Assembly (NCBI RefSeq): GCF_017744555.1
Contig: NZ_JAGIBD010000007.1
Coordinates: 129,446-193,445, forward strand
Origin: Cellulomonas sp.
GTDB taxonomy: Bacteria > Actinomycetota > Actinomycetes > Actinomycetales > Cellulomonadaceae
Direction of reading: 5' to 3'
Length of the DNA: 64,000 nucleotides
Below, in pieces: positions 6,262 to 54,077 of this stretch. Position 1 is the first letter of the stretch. Every line of letters starts with the position of its first letter. A program made the translations under genes and the position numbers. Below the pieces are notes generated by a model, which was not told the DNA's origin, searched no databases, and saw only the letters and a program-made list of their open reading frames with translations.

Positions 6262-6345
6262 CCTGTCCCGGTCGCGACTGGCGCAGAGGTGGGGAACCAC
6301 CGGGGAGCGACGCAGCAGCAGACTTCGGGTCGGACGCCTGGGCCC
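6262..6345 (+). promoter_or_regulatory. ZTP (pfl) riboswitch upstream of glyA-folD
   Basis: The aptamer can be drawn by hand. P1 pairs GTCGC (6271-6275) with GCGAC (6307-6311). Inside it, ACTGGCG is followed by a P2 hairpin GGTGG-ggaa-CCACC (6288-6301) and the conserved GGGGAGCGAC. The 3' subdomain ends in GCCTGGGC (6336-6343). These are hallmark elements of the pfl RNA, which binds ZTP/ZMP when 10-formyl-THF is short. Downstream, CACACC-gct-GGTGTG (6354-6368) may be part of the expression platform. glyA and folD are classic targets. Class assignment is by recalled consensus; no covariance search was run. Confidence 0.85.
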
Positions 6346-6438
6346 ACGGTCACCACACCGCTGGTGTGCGTGCCCGTCCGTGTGCCGGGTGCGACCACGA
6401 GCTTCGACAAGCCGTCCGCTGATGCCTGAGGAGTGTCC

Positions 6439-40958: not shown

Positions 40959-41120
40959 CGGTCCTCGTCGTTCGGCGGCGCGGCCGGTGGGGACCGGTCG
41001 CAGTCTTGACGCCGGGGCGCTCGCACGCCCCGGTCGTCACGTCCAACAGGGTCGCACGCGCGCATGTTCCCGGCCGCGGCCCGACGTCCCGTGTCGGCGC
41101 GGCCTGCGAGACTGTGCGCG

Positions 41121-43139
41121 ATGTCCGCCGACGCCCTCCTCGACGCGCTCGATCCCGAGCAGCGCGCTGTCGCCACCGCCCTGCGCGGGCCCGTCTGCGT
41201 GCTCGCGGGTGCGGGCACGGGCAAGACGAGGGCCATCACGCACCGCATCGCGTACGGCATCCGCACGGGCGTGTACCGGCCCGGGAGCGTGCTGGCGGTG
41301 ACGTTCACGGCGCGGGCCGCGGGCGAGATGCGCACGCGGCTGCGCGGCCTCGGCGCGACCGGCGTGCAGGCGCGCACGTTCCACGCCGCGGCCCTGCGCC
41401 AGCTCGGCTTCTTCTGGCCGAAGGTCGTCGGGGGTGCGGCGCCGCGGATCGTCGAGCAGAAGGCGCAGGTCGTCGCGGAGGCGGCCCGGCGCGTGGGCCT
41501 GTCGGTCGACCGGGTGAGCGTGCGCGACCTCGCGTCCGAGATCGAGTGGGCCAAGGTCTCGCTCGTGACGGCCGACGACTACGTGCGCGCGGTGACCGCG
41601 ATCGAGCGCTCGGTGCCGAGCGGCGAGGACCCGCAGGCGGTCGCGCGGCTCATGACGGCGTACGAGCAGGTCAAGCTCGAGCGCGGCGTCATCGACTTCG
41701 AGGACGTGCTGCTGCTGCTCGCGGCGATGCTCGTGGAGCGCCGGGACATCGCCGACGAGGTGCGCGACCAGTACCGCTACTTCGTGGTCGACGAGTACCA
41801 GGACGTCAGCCCGCTGCAGCAGTACCTGCTCGACCAGTGGCTCGGCGGCCGGCACGAGCTGTGCGTGGTCGGCGACCCGTCGCAGACCATCTACTCGTTC
41901 GCGGGCGCGACCCCGTACCACCTGACGACGTTCCCGCAGACCCACCCGGGCACCACCCTCGTCCGCCTGGTCCGCGACTACCGGTCGACGCCCCAGGTGG
42001 TAAACCTGGCGAACCACGTGATCGACGCGAGCCGCCGCGTCGGCGGGCCCGCGCCCCTCGAGCTGCGGGCCCAGCGCCCGGACGGCCCCGAGGTCCGGTA
42101 CGCGGCGTTCGACGACGACGACGCCGAGGCGACCGGTATCGCCCAGGCGGTCGCCCGGCTGGTCCGCTCGGGTGTGCGACCCAGCGAGATCGCGATCCTG
42201 TACCGGACGAACGCCCAGTCGGAGGCGTTCGAGGAGGCCCTCGCGAGCGCCGGCATCGCGTACCAGGTCCGCGGCGGCGAGCGGTTCTTCGCCCGACGGG
42301 ACGTGCGCGACGCGCTCGTGCTGCTGCGCGGTGGCGCGCGGGCCGCCGACCCGCAGGCCGCCATGCCCGACTCGGTCCGCGACATCCTGCGCAACGTCGG
42401 CTGGGCCGAGCAGCCGCCCGCCGCACGCGGTGCGGCCCGCGAGCGGTGGGACGCGATGCAGGCCCTCGTCACGCTGGCCGACGAGCTGGCCGCGGCACCG
42501 GTGGCGAGCGGCCGCGCGGCGACGGTGTCCGACCTCGTCGCCGAGCTCGACGAGCGCGCGGCCGCCCAGCACGCACCCACCGTCGAGGGCGTGACGCTCG
42601 CGTCCCTGCATGCCGCCAAGGGTCTCGAGTGGGACGCCGTGTTCCTCGCCGGCCTGAGCGACGGCCTCCTGCCGACCGCGCTCGCGGACACCGACGCGAT
42701 GGTCGCGGAGGAGCGGCGCCTGCTCTACGTCGGCATCACGCGAGCCCGTGAGCACCTGCAGCTCTCGTACGCCCGCGCGCGCATGCCCGGTAGCCGGCCG
42801 ACGCGATCGATGTCCCGGTTCCTCGTCGACCTGTGGCCCGACGGCCGGGGGCGGACGGGTGCGGGTCGAGCTGCCCGCGCCGCCACGACGGCGGACGACG
42901 CCGATCCGGTCACCCGCGAGACGGCGGCCCGGCTGACCCGCTGGCGCGACGACTACGCGCACGCGACCGGCGTGCCGGCCGTGCGGGTGCTGACCGCGGC
43001 GACGATCGCCGAGGTCGCCCGCCGCCGGCCGGCGAGCCGCGAGGAGCTCGGGCAGGTGCGCGGCATCGGCGCGGTGACGCTCGCGACCATCGGCGACGAG
43101 ATCGTCGACGTCGTGGTCCAGGGCTCCGCCCGGGCCTGA
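41121..43139 (+). CDS. uvrD2: UvrD2-like SF1 DNA helicase with HRDC domain
   Basis: 672 residues. The motor has LAGAGTGKTRAITHR (about 28-42), LAVTFTARAAGEM, VVDEYQDVSPLQQ (motif II near 222), GDPSQTIYSFAGA, LASLHAAKGLEWD and YVGITRAREHLQL. It ends with an HRDC domain (about 595-672, TRWRDDYAHATGVPAVRVLT with LGQVRGIGAVT). Mycobacterial UvrD2 carries a four-cysteine motif before the HRDC; none is seen here, where the linker is Gly/Arg/Ala rich. ATG 41121 is preferred over a start at 41064, with GAGACT seven bases upstream. Confidence 0.92.
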   Translation: MSADALLDALDPEQRAVATALRGPVCVLAGAGTGKTRAITHRIAYGIRTGVYRPGSVLAVTFTARAAGEMRTRLRGLGATGVQARTFHAAALRQLGFFWPKVVGGAAPRIVEQKAQVVAEAARRVGLSVDRVSVRDLASEIEWAKVSLVTADDYVRAVTAIERSVPSGEDPQAVARLMTAYEQVKLERGVIDFEDVLLLLAAMLVERRDIADEVRDQYRYFVVDEYQDVSPLQQYLLDQWLGGRHELCVVGDPSQTIYSFAGATPYHLTTFPQTHPGTTLVRLVRDYRSTPQVVNLANHVIDASRRVGGPAPLELRAQRPDGPEVRYAAFDDDDAEATGIAQAVARLVRSGVRPSEIAILYRTNAQSEAFEEALASAGIAYQVRGGERFFARRDVRDALVLLRGGARAADPQAAMPDSVRDILRNVGWAEQPPAARGAARERWDAMQALVTLADELAAAPVASGRAATVSDLVAELDERAAAQHAPTVEGVTLASLHAAKGLEWDAVFLAGLSDGLLPTALADTDAMVAEERRLLYVGITRAREHLQLSYARARMPGSRPTRSMSRFLVDLWPDGRGRTGAGRAARAATTADDADPVTRETAARLTRWRDDYAHATGVPAVRVLTAATIAEVARRRPASREELGQVRGIGAVTLATIGDEIVDVVVQGSARA

Positions 43140-43227: not shown

Positions 43228-43268
43228 GGTTAATTCGGTTGTCCGGCCTTCAGACGTCGCCCTAGGGT
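43228..43268 (+). promoter_or_regulatory. whiB7 promoter with AT-rich upstream element
   Basis: TTGTCC (43239-43244) and TAGGGT (43263-43268) are separated by 18 bp, a sigma-A-type promoter. GGTTAATTCGG directly upstream of the -35 is the sort of AT-rich patch that the WhiB7-sigma-A complex contacts via its AT-hook, suggesting autoactivation. Transcription would start near 43275, giving a leader of about 460 bases. Confidence 0.65.
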
Positions 43269-43339
43269 GAGACCCGTCCTTGAAACGTGGGCTGCGCCGT
43301 GAAGGCGGAGGCCCGGACCCGGAAGGAGGTGGCGAGCTG

Positions 43340-43600
43340 ATGGACATGACCATGACGAACACGTCGAGCGTCGAGCGCGCGGTGTCCCTCCGGAACCTCG
43401 TGCCCACCTCCACCGTGTCCCAGGGGCGAGCTCTGCCTACGCCGGTGTCGTGCGCCATTCATGGCGTGATCTCCGAGTCGAAGCAGAGCACGGCGAAGCA
43501 GCCGGCCTTTGCCCCCGGGTACACGACGCTCGGCGGAGCTGTCGCATGGCGCAAGCGTGGCGCCGATCTGCGACTCCGCCCTCGGGCTCCTCTGGTCTGA
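43340..43600 (+). CDS. whiB7 leader uORF (86 codons)
   Basis: AAGGAGGT (43323-43330), a perfect anti-16S match, stands nine bases before ATG 43340. The reading starts MDMTMTNTSSVERAVSLRNL and stops at 43598-43600. The product matches no family I know and ends in a basic run (RKRGADLRLRPRAPLV). The stop is only 15 bases before the left arm of an intrinsic terminator, and the 3' half of the ORF contains both strands of a competing hairpin. The act of translation, rather than the peptide, is therefore the likely signal: drug-stalled ribosomes would change which hairpin forms and let RNA polymerase reach whiB7. Confidence 0.7.
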   Translation: MDMTMTNTSSVERAVSLRNLVPTSTVSQGRALPTPVSCAIHGVISESKQSTAKQPAFAPGYTTLGGAVAWRKRGADLRLRPRAPLV

Positions 43601-43652
43601 CCGCACAACGGTCACAGGCCGCGGAGTCCGTCACTCGGATCCGCGGCCTTTC
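43532..43652 (+). promoter_or_regulatory. Transcription attenuator of whiB7
   Basis: Four segments can pair alternately. Segment 1, GGCGGAG (43532-43538, plus TCGCA 43542-43546), pairs with segment 2, CTCCGCC (43574-43580, plus TGCGA 43569-43573). Segment 2 (ACTCCGC, 43573-43579) can instead pair with segment 3 (GCGGAGT, 43621-43627). Segment 3 (AGGCCGCGGA, 43616-43625) pairs perfectly with segment 4 (TCCGCGGCCT, 43640-43649), followed by TTTCTCATT, giving a textbook terminator. A small hairpin GACCG-cacaa-CGGTC (43599-43613) lies between. Segments 1 and 2 are inside the uORF. Confidence 0.72.
43616..43652 (+). terminator. Intrinsic terminator within the whiB7 leader
   Basis: A 10-bp perfect stem (43616-43625/43640-43649) extended by TCCG/CGGA inside the loop, then TTTCTCATT. 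It lies 80 bases upstream of the whiB7 start, so it must be bypassed for expression. Confidence 0.8.
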
Positions 43653-43732
43653 TCATTCCTCCCGATGACGGGGGAGCGAGTCGGTCCCGGTCCGGAACCA
43701 TCGCTCACCCGCAAGGACATCAGGAGGACATC

Positions 43733-44086
43733 GTGCGGCTCACGACGCTGCTCGACACCGTGAACCAGGGCGGATCCGGCCCTTGGCCCCTCACGGGCAG
43801 CACCGCGACCACCGACGACCGTCAGCAGTTCGACCAGCTGCTCGCCGACCTCATCCCGTGCCGCTCGAACGACCCCGAGCTCTGGTTCGCCGAGCAGACC
43901 GCGCAGGTCGAGGCGGCGAAGGCCCTGTGCCGGGAGTGCCCGCTCATCGACGGCTGCCTCGCCGGCGCCATCGAGAGGGCCGAGCCGTGGGGTGTCTGGG
44001 GCGGTCAGGTGTTCATCGGCGGTGTGGTCGTCCCGACCAAGCGTGGTCGGGGCCGGCCGCGGAAGAACCCGGTCGTCGCAGCCTGA
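43733..44086 (+). CDS. whiB7: WhiB7-type Fe-S transcriptional regulator
   Basis: 117 residues. The four cluster cysteines are in ADLIPCRSNDPELWF and ALCRECPLIDGC (C...CxxC...C). The turn motif EPWGVWGGQVF follows, and then the C-terminal AT-hook KRGRGRPRKN that marks the WhiB7 subgroup. WhiB7 binds the primary sigma factor and turns on intrinsic antibiotic-resistance genes. AGGAGG (43722-43727) lies five bases before GTG 43733. The roughly 25 residues before the first conserved part (GGSGPWPLTGSTATT) are longer than in M. tuberculosis. Expression is probably set by the leader attenuator and by autoactivation. Confidence 0.95.
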   Translation: MRLTTLLDTVNQGGSGPWPLTGSTATTDDRQQFDQLLADLIPCRSNDPELWFAEQTAQVEAAKALCRECPLIDGCLAGAIERAEPWGVWGGQVFIGGVVVPTKRGRGRPRKNPVVAA

Positions 44087-44128: not shown

Positions 44129-45181
44129 TCATGTCGACACATGCGCACCCGCCGGGACGGCGGGCAGGGCGGTGCACCCGCAGTCGGGGTGCACCGCCCA
44201 CGTGCGTCTGCGGGGGACGACGTCGGGCAGCCCCACCTCGAACGTCACGCCGCGCAGGTGCGACGACGTGCCGCCGAGGTGACCGAGCACCGCGGCGGCG
44301 CCCAGCGCGGCGCACACGCCCGCCACGGTCCCGACCTCGCCGGGCCCGGTGTCCGGACCGACGGCCGGCGCAGACGGGTCGCCGAGCAGCTGGGCCACGA
44401 GGATCGGCCACGCGGGGTCGGCGTCGGTGCGGTGCAGGTCGAGGCACCGCAGGCAAGGGCCGTCGCCGGGGACGACGAGCGGCCCGACGACCGCGTCCGC
44501 CTCCCGCACGACGATCGAGAGGTGCGGCGTCGCCGACGAGAGCAGGACGGGGGCGCGGCCCGGGTCCGCGGCGGACCGTTCGACGAGCACGAGCACGTCG
44601 GGCTCCTGCGTGCTGTCGACGCGGACGTGCGGGGCGACGTCCCGCAGCACACGCGTCGCGACCTGCTCGCGGACGGAACCGACGTCGCCCCAGCGGTAGC
44701 CGCCGGGTCCCACGTCGTCGGACCGGACGGGGCGCGGGTCGTCGAGCAGGACCGTGCCGACGCCCGCGGCGGCGAGTGCGACCGCGACGCCCAGCCCGGT
44801 AGGACCCAGGCCCATCACGCCCACGGTGCGACGAGAGCGGCCGGCCACGACGTCGGCACCGTCGGCGCGCGGACGCAGCAGCGACCACGTGGCCGCCTCG
44901 GGTGCCGCGGGACCCGGCCGGGCCCGACCGGCAGGATCGGTGTCGGTCAGCCGTGCCTCGTCGAGCAGTGCGACGAGCGTCGAGACACGCCCCGGGTCCG
45001 CCCCGCTGCGGCGGGCCGCCGTCGGCAGGGCGGCCAGGTCGGTGCGTTCGTCGACCGACAGCAGGAGGCGGCACTCGGCGGGGGTCAGGTCGGTCAGCCG
45101 GACCGCCCAGCGCGCGTCGGTCCCCACCTGGACCTCGGTGTCCCCGCGGCGCAGCACCCGCAGACCCGGTCGCAGTCGCAT
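44129..45181 (-). CDS. ThiF/E1-like protein (TOMM cyclodehydratase-related), orphan
   Basis: 350 residues. The first 90 (RVLRRGDTEVQVGTDARWAV, ECRLLLSVDER) look like the winged-helix leader-binding domain found in RiPP enzymes. A Rossmann fold follows, with VGVMGLGPTGLGVAVALAAA and LLDDPRPVRSDDVGP. A zinc site is suggested by PCLRCLDLHR and HPDCGC. Annotation tools often call such proteins bacteriocin cyclodehydratase-like, yet no YcaO, precursor peptide or transporter is nearby. It sits in the conserved uvrD2-whiB7 block, so a housekeeping role is likelier. ATG 45181 is chosen for the adjacent GGAGGG. It is convergent with whiB7. Confidence 0.78.
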   Translation of the reverse strand: MRLRPGLRVLRRGDTEVQVGTDARWAVRLTDLTPAECRLLLSVDERTDLAALPTAARRSGADPGRVSTLVALLDEARLTDTDPAGRARPGPAAPEAATWSLLRPRADGADVVAGRSRRTVGVMGLGPTGLGVAVALAAAGVGTVLLDDPRPVRSDDVGPGGYRWGDVGSVREQVATRVLRDVAPHVRVDSTQEPDVLVLVERSAADPGRAPVLLSSATPHLSIVVREADAVVGPLVVPGDGPCLRCLDLHRTDADPAWPILVAQLLGDPSAPAVGPDTGPGEVGTVAGVCAALGAAAVLGHLGGTSSHLRGVTFEVGLPDVVPRRRTWAVHPDCGCTALPAVPAGAHVST

Positions 45182-45270
45182 GCACCCTCCTCGATGTCCG
45201 CGCCACTCTGACAGCGCCCGGACGGCCGTGCGCCGGGATGTCCACAGGTCGCGCGACCCCAGGCACACCT

Positions 45271-45304
45271 CAGGGGGCACCGTCGACGACGACGGTGCCC
45301 CCTG
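45271..45304 (-). terminator. Strong terminator after the DUF5679 gene
   Basis: A perfect 15-bp stem (45271-45285/45290-45304) with a four-base loop, 25 bases past the small zinc-ribbon gene. It separates that gene from the E1-like gene. Confidence 0.85.
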
Positions 45305-53975: not shown

Positions 53976-54005
53976 CGTCGGTGAGGTAGGTTTGTCTCAC
54001 CGACG
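53976..54005 (+). promoter_or_regulatory. Promoter of the initiator tRNA gene within an inverted repeat
   Basis: TAGGTT (53987-53992) is a good -10 for the tRNA. It lies in the loop of a perfect 10-bp inverted repeat, CGTCGGTGAG (53976-53985) and CTCACCGACG (53996-54005), whose right arm enters the tRNA gene. Confidence 0.5.
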
Positions 54006-54077
54006 CGGGGTGGAGCAGCTCGGTAGCTCGCTGGGCTCATAACCCAGAGGTCGCAGGTTCAAATCCTGCCCCCGCTA
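54004..54077 (+). tRNA. Initiator tRNA-fMet (CAT)
   Basis: A 74-base cloverleaf. The acceptor arm is CGCGGGG/CCCCGCT with a C1-T72 mismatch. The D arm is GAGCAGCTCGGTAGCTC, and the anticodon arm CTGGG-CTCATAA-CCCAG has three G-C pairs below a CAT loop. The T arm is GCAGG-TTCAAAT-CCTGC. The mismatch and the GGG/CCC pairs mark the initiator. The CCA end is not encoded. Confidence 0.97.

Follow-up and report, generated by a model that had tools for sequence, protein, structure and literature searches.

The stretch analysed here (the window) comprises 64,000 nucleotides of Cellulomonas DNA, within which a long leader precedes a whiB7-type resistance-regulator gene and raises a question of mechanism: Which segments of the leader RNA decide whether transcription stops before the gene or proceeds into it, and how would a ribosome influence that decision? 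In the passages of the literature consulted, actinobacterial whiB7 genes are described as having an upstream open reading frame (uORF) and a terminator, with ribosome stalling leading to the formation of an antiterminator (PMC10727445 and PMC11550727, citing Lee et al. 2022 among others), a mechanism that these papers present as published for mycobacteria and Streptomyces. Passages of further papers describe the uORF and attenuation of mycobacterial whiB7 (PMC4128351), refer to whiB7 as a well-characterised example (PMC13236596), report that WblC responds to many ribosome drugs as well as to starvation (PMC12421871), treat whiB7 as an exception under linezolid (PMC10937400), and state that stalling inside the uORF had not been tested (PMC12121999). 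In PMC10990936, whiB7 came up in the reference list only, and PMC2965389 is without mention of WhiB.

The whiB7-type gene and the parts of its leader

The gene that follows the leader (43733-44086, plus strand) has a GTG start and encodes a protein of 117 amino acids matching the WhiB family of Pfam (9.4e-16) and ending in RGRGRPRK, a tail which we take to be the AT-hook mark of WhiB7. Its assignment to the whiB7 type combines this Pfam match, the AT-hook-like tail and 80 relatives at 57-98% identity, while a search of NCBIfam with the WhiB7 protein and the uORF peptide returned no match for either. The host is a Cellulomonas, the nearest relative by name among those compared being C. chitinilytica (leader L008), with a 98% identical WhiB7. 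Upstream of the leader lies a gene for a UvrD-like helicase with an HRDC domain (41064-43139). On the other side, an open reading frame on the minus strand (44129-45280) converges on whiB7 and shows similarity to ThiF, together with a weak match to TOMM leader-binding proteins (TIGR03882, E 3e-7, below its cut-off).

The predicted promoter (43228-43268, plus strand) consists of an AT-rich block (43228-43238), a -35 element TTGTCC (43239-43244), 18 intervening nucleotides and a -10 element TAGGGT (43263-43268). Of 77 leaders, 72 carry the pattern TTGnnn-N16..20-TAnnnT 5' of the uORF; flank windows never show it (0 of 905), and windows of shuffled leaders do so in 47 of 1540 cases. By analogy with the promoter element described in PMC7157823, the AT-rich block, which adjoins TTGTCC, might act as a WhiB7/WblC site; the exact GAAAWY of that paper is absent there.

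A Shine-Dalgarno sequence (AAGGAGGT, 43323-43330) stands 9 nt before the ATG (43340) of a uORF of 86 codons (43340-43600, plus strand; TGA at 43598-43600). An earlier note on this DNA had read the same 86-codon uORF with its strong Shine-Dalgarno, which it called perfect, and was equally right in placing the stop codon 15 bases before the terminator arm at 43616. The intrinsic terminator is a predicted hairpin (43616-43649, plus strand) with its left arm at 43616-43630, its right arm at 43636-43649 and a U-rich tail reaching about 43655; the U-tract is poor (TTTCTCATT), and a simple terminator scan did not flag the hairpin. Searching Rfam matched no riboswitch or other family in the leader; elsewhere in the window, a ZMP/ZTP riboswitch lies at 6264-6350 (55.1 bits, above the Rfam gathering score) and a tRNA gene at 54004-54077.

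This layout recurs widely. The first set of leaders contained 81 members, namely the window and the loci of its 80 WhiB7 relatives, and terminator arms were recognised in 77 of them (all except L063, L081, L082 and L086). In these 77, the left arm is preceded at 11-23 nt by the end of an open reading frame of 31-97 codons, the presence of the uORF being partly by construction, as the picking rule required a stop codon near the arm and scored the Shine-Dalgarno. Among genomes of the order, 82 of 149 gave WhiB7-like matches at E 1e-14, as did 130 of 148 in the class. Of 98 further leaders taken from these genomes, 92 had a terminator plus uORF by the rule (35/40 and 57/58); several of these 92 share a genus, so that the counts are not independent, and the six others are L092, L093, L104, L105, L107 and L184. 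By this rule-based search, the uORF with its Shine-Dalgarno occupies the same position in leaders throughout the class. This points to a common layout of the whiB7 switch across many actinobacterial families, beyond the mycobacteria and Streptomyces in which it has been studied.

Competing partners of the terminator arm

In the leader-peptide attenuators of trp and his type, the position of the ribosome picks terminator or antiterminator. The leader described here would have this choice in common with them, and the earlier note had modelled its wiring accordingly: segment 1 (43532-43546, plus strand) would by default form a hairpin with segment 2 (43569-43580), and it would take a ribosome stalling over segment 1 to free segment 2 for pairing (2:3) with the left arm of the terminator (3:4). 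The pairings it named do exist. The free fold of 43520-43660, which combines the 1:2 hairpin with the 3:4 terminator, has an energy of -69.7 kcal/mol (z -4.1) that none of 200 shuffles equalled, and GACUCCGC (43572-43579) is complementary to GCGGAGUC (43621-43628), which makes the core of segment 2 (GACTCCGC, 43572-43579, plus strand) an alternative, possibly ancestral, partner of the arm.

However, the left arm has a better partner than segment 2, missed in that first reading: the end of the uORF. A composite hairpin (43583-43630, plus strand) joins the final 15 nt of the uORF and the stop codon to the left arm of the terminator and is built from three predicted helices, P3 (43583-43590 with 43623-43630), P2 (43593-43598 with 43616-43621) and P1 (43599-43603 with 43609-43613), the 5' strands of P2 and P1 together spanning 43593-43603. 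The stop codon (43598-43600) thus lies within the P2/P1 stem, and the folds of relatives also show a hairpin at the uORF stop codon. The energy of the composite is -28.8 kcal/mol versus -27.4 for the terminator alone, and we consider it the best predicted antiterminator, a fold predicted to arise before the right arm exists. In folds lacking the right arm, the uORF end pairs with 6 or more nt of the left arm in 77/77, 33/35 and 57/57 leaders, though these folds beat shuffles (z under -1.64) in only 51/77, 30/35 and 41/57.

The order of folding follows from the growing RNA. At the tested RNA 3' ends 43630-43644 the uORF end holds 14 nt of the arm, and once the 3' end reaches 43648 the minimum-energy fold is the terminator; barring 43582-43612, which mimics a ribosome at the stop codon, leaves the terminator. 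At full-length equilibrium the terminator state is the better one by about 10 kcal/mol (-69.7 vs -59.3), and because of this read-through would need the early structure to persist, presumably by kinetic trapping.

How does the trp-like arrangement fare against these folds? Exclusivity holds for one part of it, since the left arm cannot be engaged both in the 3:4 terminator and with the uORF end, and fails for the other, since the 1:2 hairpin coexists with the composite antiterminator; because the two form together, the 1:2 hairpin is no anti-antiterminator. Nor is 1:2 versus 2:3 supported as the deciding choice, the best predicted antiterminator using 43583-43600 rather than 43569-43580. With the right arm barred, the composite fold reaches -59.3 kcal/mol and the forced 2:3 fold -48.2, 11 kcal/mol worse, part of the gap arising because forced 2:3 breaks the 1:2 hairpin. 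The leader further differs from trp/his-type attenuators in that no run of regulatory codons is seen and no protector (1:2) hairpin exclusive with 2:3, as in a trp-type attenuator, is conserved. Among 48 leaders carrying a segment-2-like element, GACTCC[GA], the window alone has at least 7 of the 8 nt paired with upstream sequence, and the mean number so paired is 2.75, versus 3.96 in shuffles. In a general 1:2 test, which in the window took the near-stop strand as segment 2, only one of 77 leaders (L077) reached 10 or fewer of 200 shuffles.

Several observations speak for the trp-like switch all the same: the 1:2 hairpin belongs to the minimum-energy fold of the window and, by a shorter direct fold, is kept in L008; GACTCCGC recurs in many relatives; and the stretch that covers the hairpin has changed little between the two species. 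The coexisting folds, their energies and the rarity of 1:2 among relatives nevertheless led us to reject the 1:2/2:3 choice as the main switch, and we regard a switch governed by stalling over segment 1 as improbable. Between the window and L008, the 93 nt of 43489-43581 differ at only 2 positions, whereas the 149 nt before them differ at 16 and the 11 nt of the uORF after them at 5.

The recurrence of GACTCCGC can be placed in an evolutionary frame. In Promicromonospora, Cellulosimicrobium and other relatives, the left arm is complementary to this element, whereas many Cellulomonas leaders use CGGACTCC, adjoining the stop codon. RNAalifold gave helices of 8 and 7 bp on two family subsets of 24 and 11 leaders, a result that is partly by construction, the subsets having been chosen for presence of the element. 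The window and L008 contain both candidate antiterminator strands, which suggests a lineage where the antiterminator strand may have moved; segment 2 may be the older register.

Taken with the evidence from relatives, these folds lead us to conclude that the leader is very probably a whiB7 transcription attenuator wired through the uORF and the composite antiterminator. RNA polymerase would start near 43275, with a ribosome translating the uORF behind it. Were translation completed, the ribosome at the stop codon (43598) would cover the composite antiterminator, which contains that stop; the left arm (43616-43630) would then be free to pair with 43636-43649, and transcription would end near 43652. 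Were the ribosome instead stalled or slowed well upstream, by a drug or by shortage of an amino acid, the last 15 nt of the uORF and the stop codon would capture the left arm before synthesis of the right arm, and polymerase would read through into whiB7, the product of which would probably activate its own promoter. The uORF would hence act as a ruler of ribosome position and not via its peptide. With the stop codon in the antiterminator stem, it would be readily understood how different translation inhibitors could all work via a single leader, and the first reading is corrected here as to which RNA segments are likely to decide the outcome.

In these features the leader is a member of the known whiB7/wblC attenuators, with one conserved motif as a lead (see below). 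It has a whiB7-type gene downstream, a uORF led by a Shine-Dalgarno and ending just before the terminator, and, by prediction, an intrinsic terminator between uORF and gene as well as an antiterminator overlapping uORF and arm. The attenuators of mycobacteria and Streptomyces (Lee et al. 2022; Burian and Thompson 2018, both via passages of citing papers) likewise have a long leader, a uORF and a Rho-independent terminator, and their antiterminator also overlaps uORF and terminator sequence (passages of PMC10727445). The Cellulomonas leader differs from them in the sequence and length of its uORF and in its two candidate antiterminator strands; a stop codon in the antiterminator stem and a motif in the middle of the uORF go unmentioned in the passages of citing papers that describe the known attenuators.

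Co-adaptation of the uORF end and the terminator arm

Covariation of the paired segments among relatives was borne out in individual leaders and failed to appear column by column. Compensatory cases are found in L079 (GAAGCCC/GGGCTTC), in L040 and L056 (GTGGAGTC/GACTCCAC) and in L094 (GCGGAGCC/GGCTCCGC). A column-by-column test with rigid anchors in 66 class leaders gave a top score of 0.39, not above permutation (mean 0.30, maximum 0.50), and RNAalifold on 79 class leaders produced no consensus structure; spacing varies between lineages. After these two analyses had given nothing on the class, we used an alignment-free swap test, pairing each uORF end with the spacer and arm of its own leader or with those of other leaders. 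(L099 is without an anchor in the column test and was passed over in the swap test.)

In the full swap, the own combination surpassed the average of the swapped ones in 58 of 59 non-redundant leaders of the class (Wilcoxon p 5e-11) and in 23 of 30 leaders of the family (p 3e-5). Swapping the arm only, the own arm was better in 46/59 class and 24/30 family leaders; swapping the spacer only, the own spacer was better in 43/59 class leaders, the family result (18/30) not being significant (p 0.10). The uORF end and the arm are thus co-adapted among relatives, the window itself ranking modestly in the full test (0.66) and higher for the arm alone (0.83), where chance is 0.5.

This coupling bears on a further alternative, namely that the uORF is an untranslated relic and that the terminator either works constitutively or answers to a factor in trans (e.g., Rho or a protein). 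Translation of the uORF is something that we infer here, and the weakness of the U-tract would also suit such a reading; the swap test, however, ties the uORF end to the arm, and the uORF with its Shine-Dalgarno keeps its place through the class by the search rule, so that we judge the relic very unlikely. The claim of the earlier note that this is a whiB7 leader with uORF-coupled attenuation is instead supported by the arms in 77 of 81 leaders, the exclusive folds and the swap test.

A nucleotide motif in the middle of the uORF

Well upstream of the composite hairpin, the uORF contains a pause-like motif (CAGGGGCGAGCTCTGCCT, 43421-43438, plus strand) with the core GG-N6-T-S-Y-G at 43424-43435. 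The consensus, GG-N6-T-S-Y-G-Y-C-C, is present in all three frames across the class; the window copy fits the core, but ends in CCT, the last base departing from YCC. The string CAGGGGNNNGCTSTGCCC is common to many uORFs of Cellulomonas, where it lies around codon 28.

For the motif statistics, 73 of the 77 family uORFs were used (L040, L064, L066 and L076 were omitted), of which 47 non-redundant ones were kept. In 31 of these 47, the core is found at a distance of 80-108 nt from the start, as compared with a mean of 5.3 and a maximum of 14 in 500 synonymous-codon controls, the regular expression and the interval having been chosen after inspecting the family set. A matrix built from these 31 family uORFs alone was then scanned on 92 other uORFs, which had already been inspected beforehand; against 100 dinucleotide shuffles, it reached p ~0.01 in 31/92 and 0.05 in 46/92, and found no motif at p 0.05 in the other 46. 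Extended by YCC, the motif occurs in 28/47 family uORFs (3.65 per kb) and 33/92 class uORFs (1.46 per kb); upstream flanks totalling 86 kb contain it at 0.05 per kb, and it is missing from 15.6 kb and 36.5 kb of sequence on the whiB7 side. The bare core, found in 38/47 family uORFs (6.6 per kb, versus 2.62 per kb in upstream flanks), is only 2.5 times denser there than in the flanks, and the large excess arises with the added YCC.

Does the motif act through the peptide or through the nucleic acid? A drug-sensing arrest peptide, in which a specific nascent chain and a drug stall at a defined codon would set the switch, could draw on the recurrent string LAPT...FQG.A.P..G around codon 28 of Cellulomonas uORFs. 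Yet of the 40 family rows containing the loose motif, 37 have T as the third base of the codon preceding STG (the exceptions being L028, L051 and L080), even though the amino acid specified varies between A (25), G (5), T (5), S (1) and R (1), and the 33 class matches, some from one genus, fall in frames 0 (18), 2 (13) and 1 (2). Moreover, the frame in which GACTCCGC is read differs between lineages, and the 23 differences between the uORFs of the window and L008 are distributed 7/9/7 over codon positions 1/2/3, which in this one species pair gives no sign of selection on the peptide. Bases rather than residues being conserved, the motif standing in several frames and the differences being so distributed, we rejected the arrest peptide as the main reading and hold it to be slightly less probable even than the trp-like switch.

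Structural roles were considered as well. Co-adapted pairing of the motif with six other stretches of the leader showed no excess (n=44, p 0.67-0.99), a hairpin inside the motif is weak (mean z -0.7; 12/61 below -1.64), and a hairpin directly upstream was seen in 0/61. Its distance to the stop codon ranges from 41 to 251 nt in the 61 uORFs of family and class.

The core, which is also common elsewhere, fits the elemental pause consensus of RNA polymerase, G-10, Y-1 and G+1 on the non-template strand, as quoted in passages of PMC9291695 and PMC10268239 (also PMC6336406). Against the pause reading, YCC, the source of the excess, is absent from the consensus quoted in those passages. We advance the hypothesis that the motif may be a polymerase pause; a protein site would fit the data too. 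It is conceivable, if somewhat short of an even chance, that across the class the middle of the whiB7 uORF contains a dedicated pause signal, independent of reading frame, which would hold polymerase until the ribosome has loaded and caught up and would thereby time its arrival at the stop codon to synthesis of the terminator arms. If this were true, the switch would gauge the progress of the ribosome against a clock rather than a stall at a special codon, which would explain its response to unrelated inhibitors.

Polymerase pausing is known from trp/his-type leaders (passages of PMC9291695). The leader of Bacillus subtilis vmlR, as described in part of PMC9226507, similarly joins an antibiotic, a uORF, a terminator, polymerase pausing in the leader and a resistance gene, but has its own NusG-dependent TTNTTT pause and an anti-antiterminator, the likeness being one of described features. 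The titles, abstract starts and passages searched yielded no report of a pause motif in a whiB7 uORF or of a Cellulomonas whiB7 leader. The motif makes the coordination of polymerase and ribosome at whiB7 directly testable. The window copy occurs once in its own genome at up to 1 mismatch, which speaks against a dispersed repeat.
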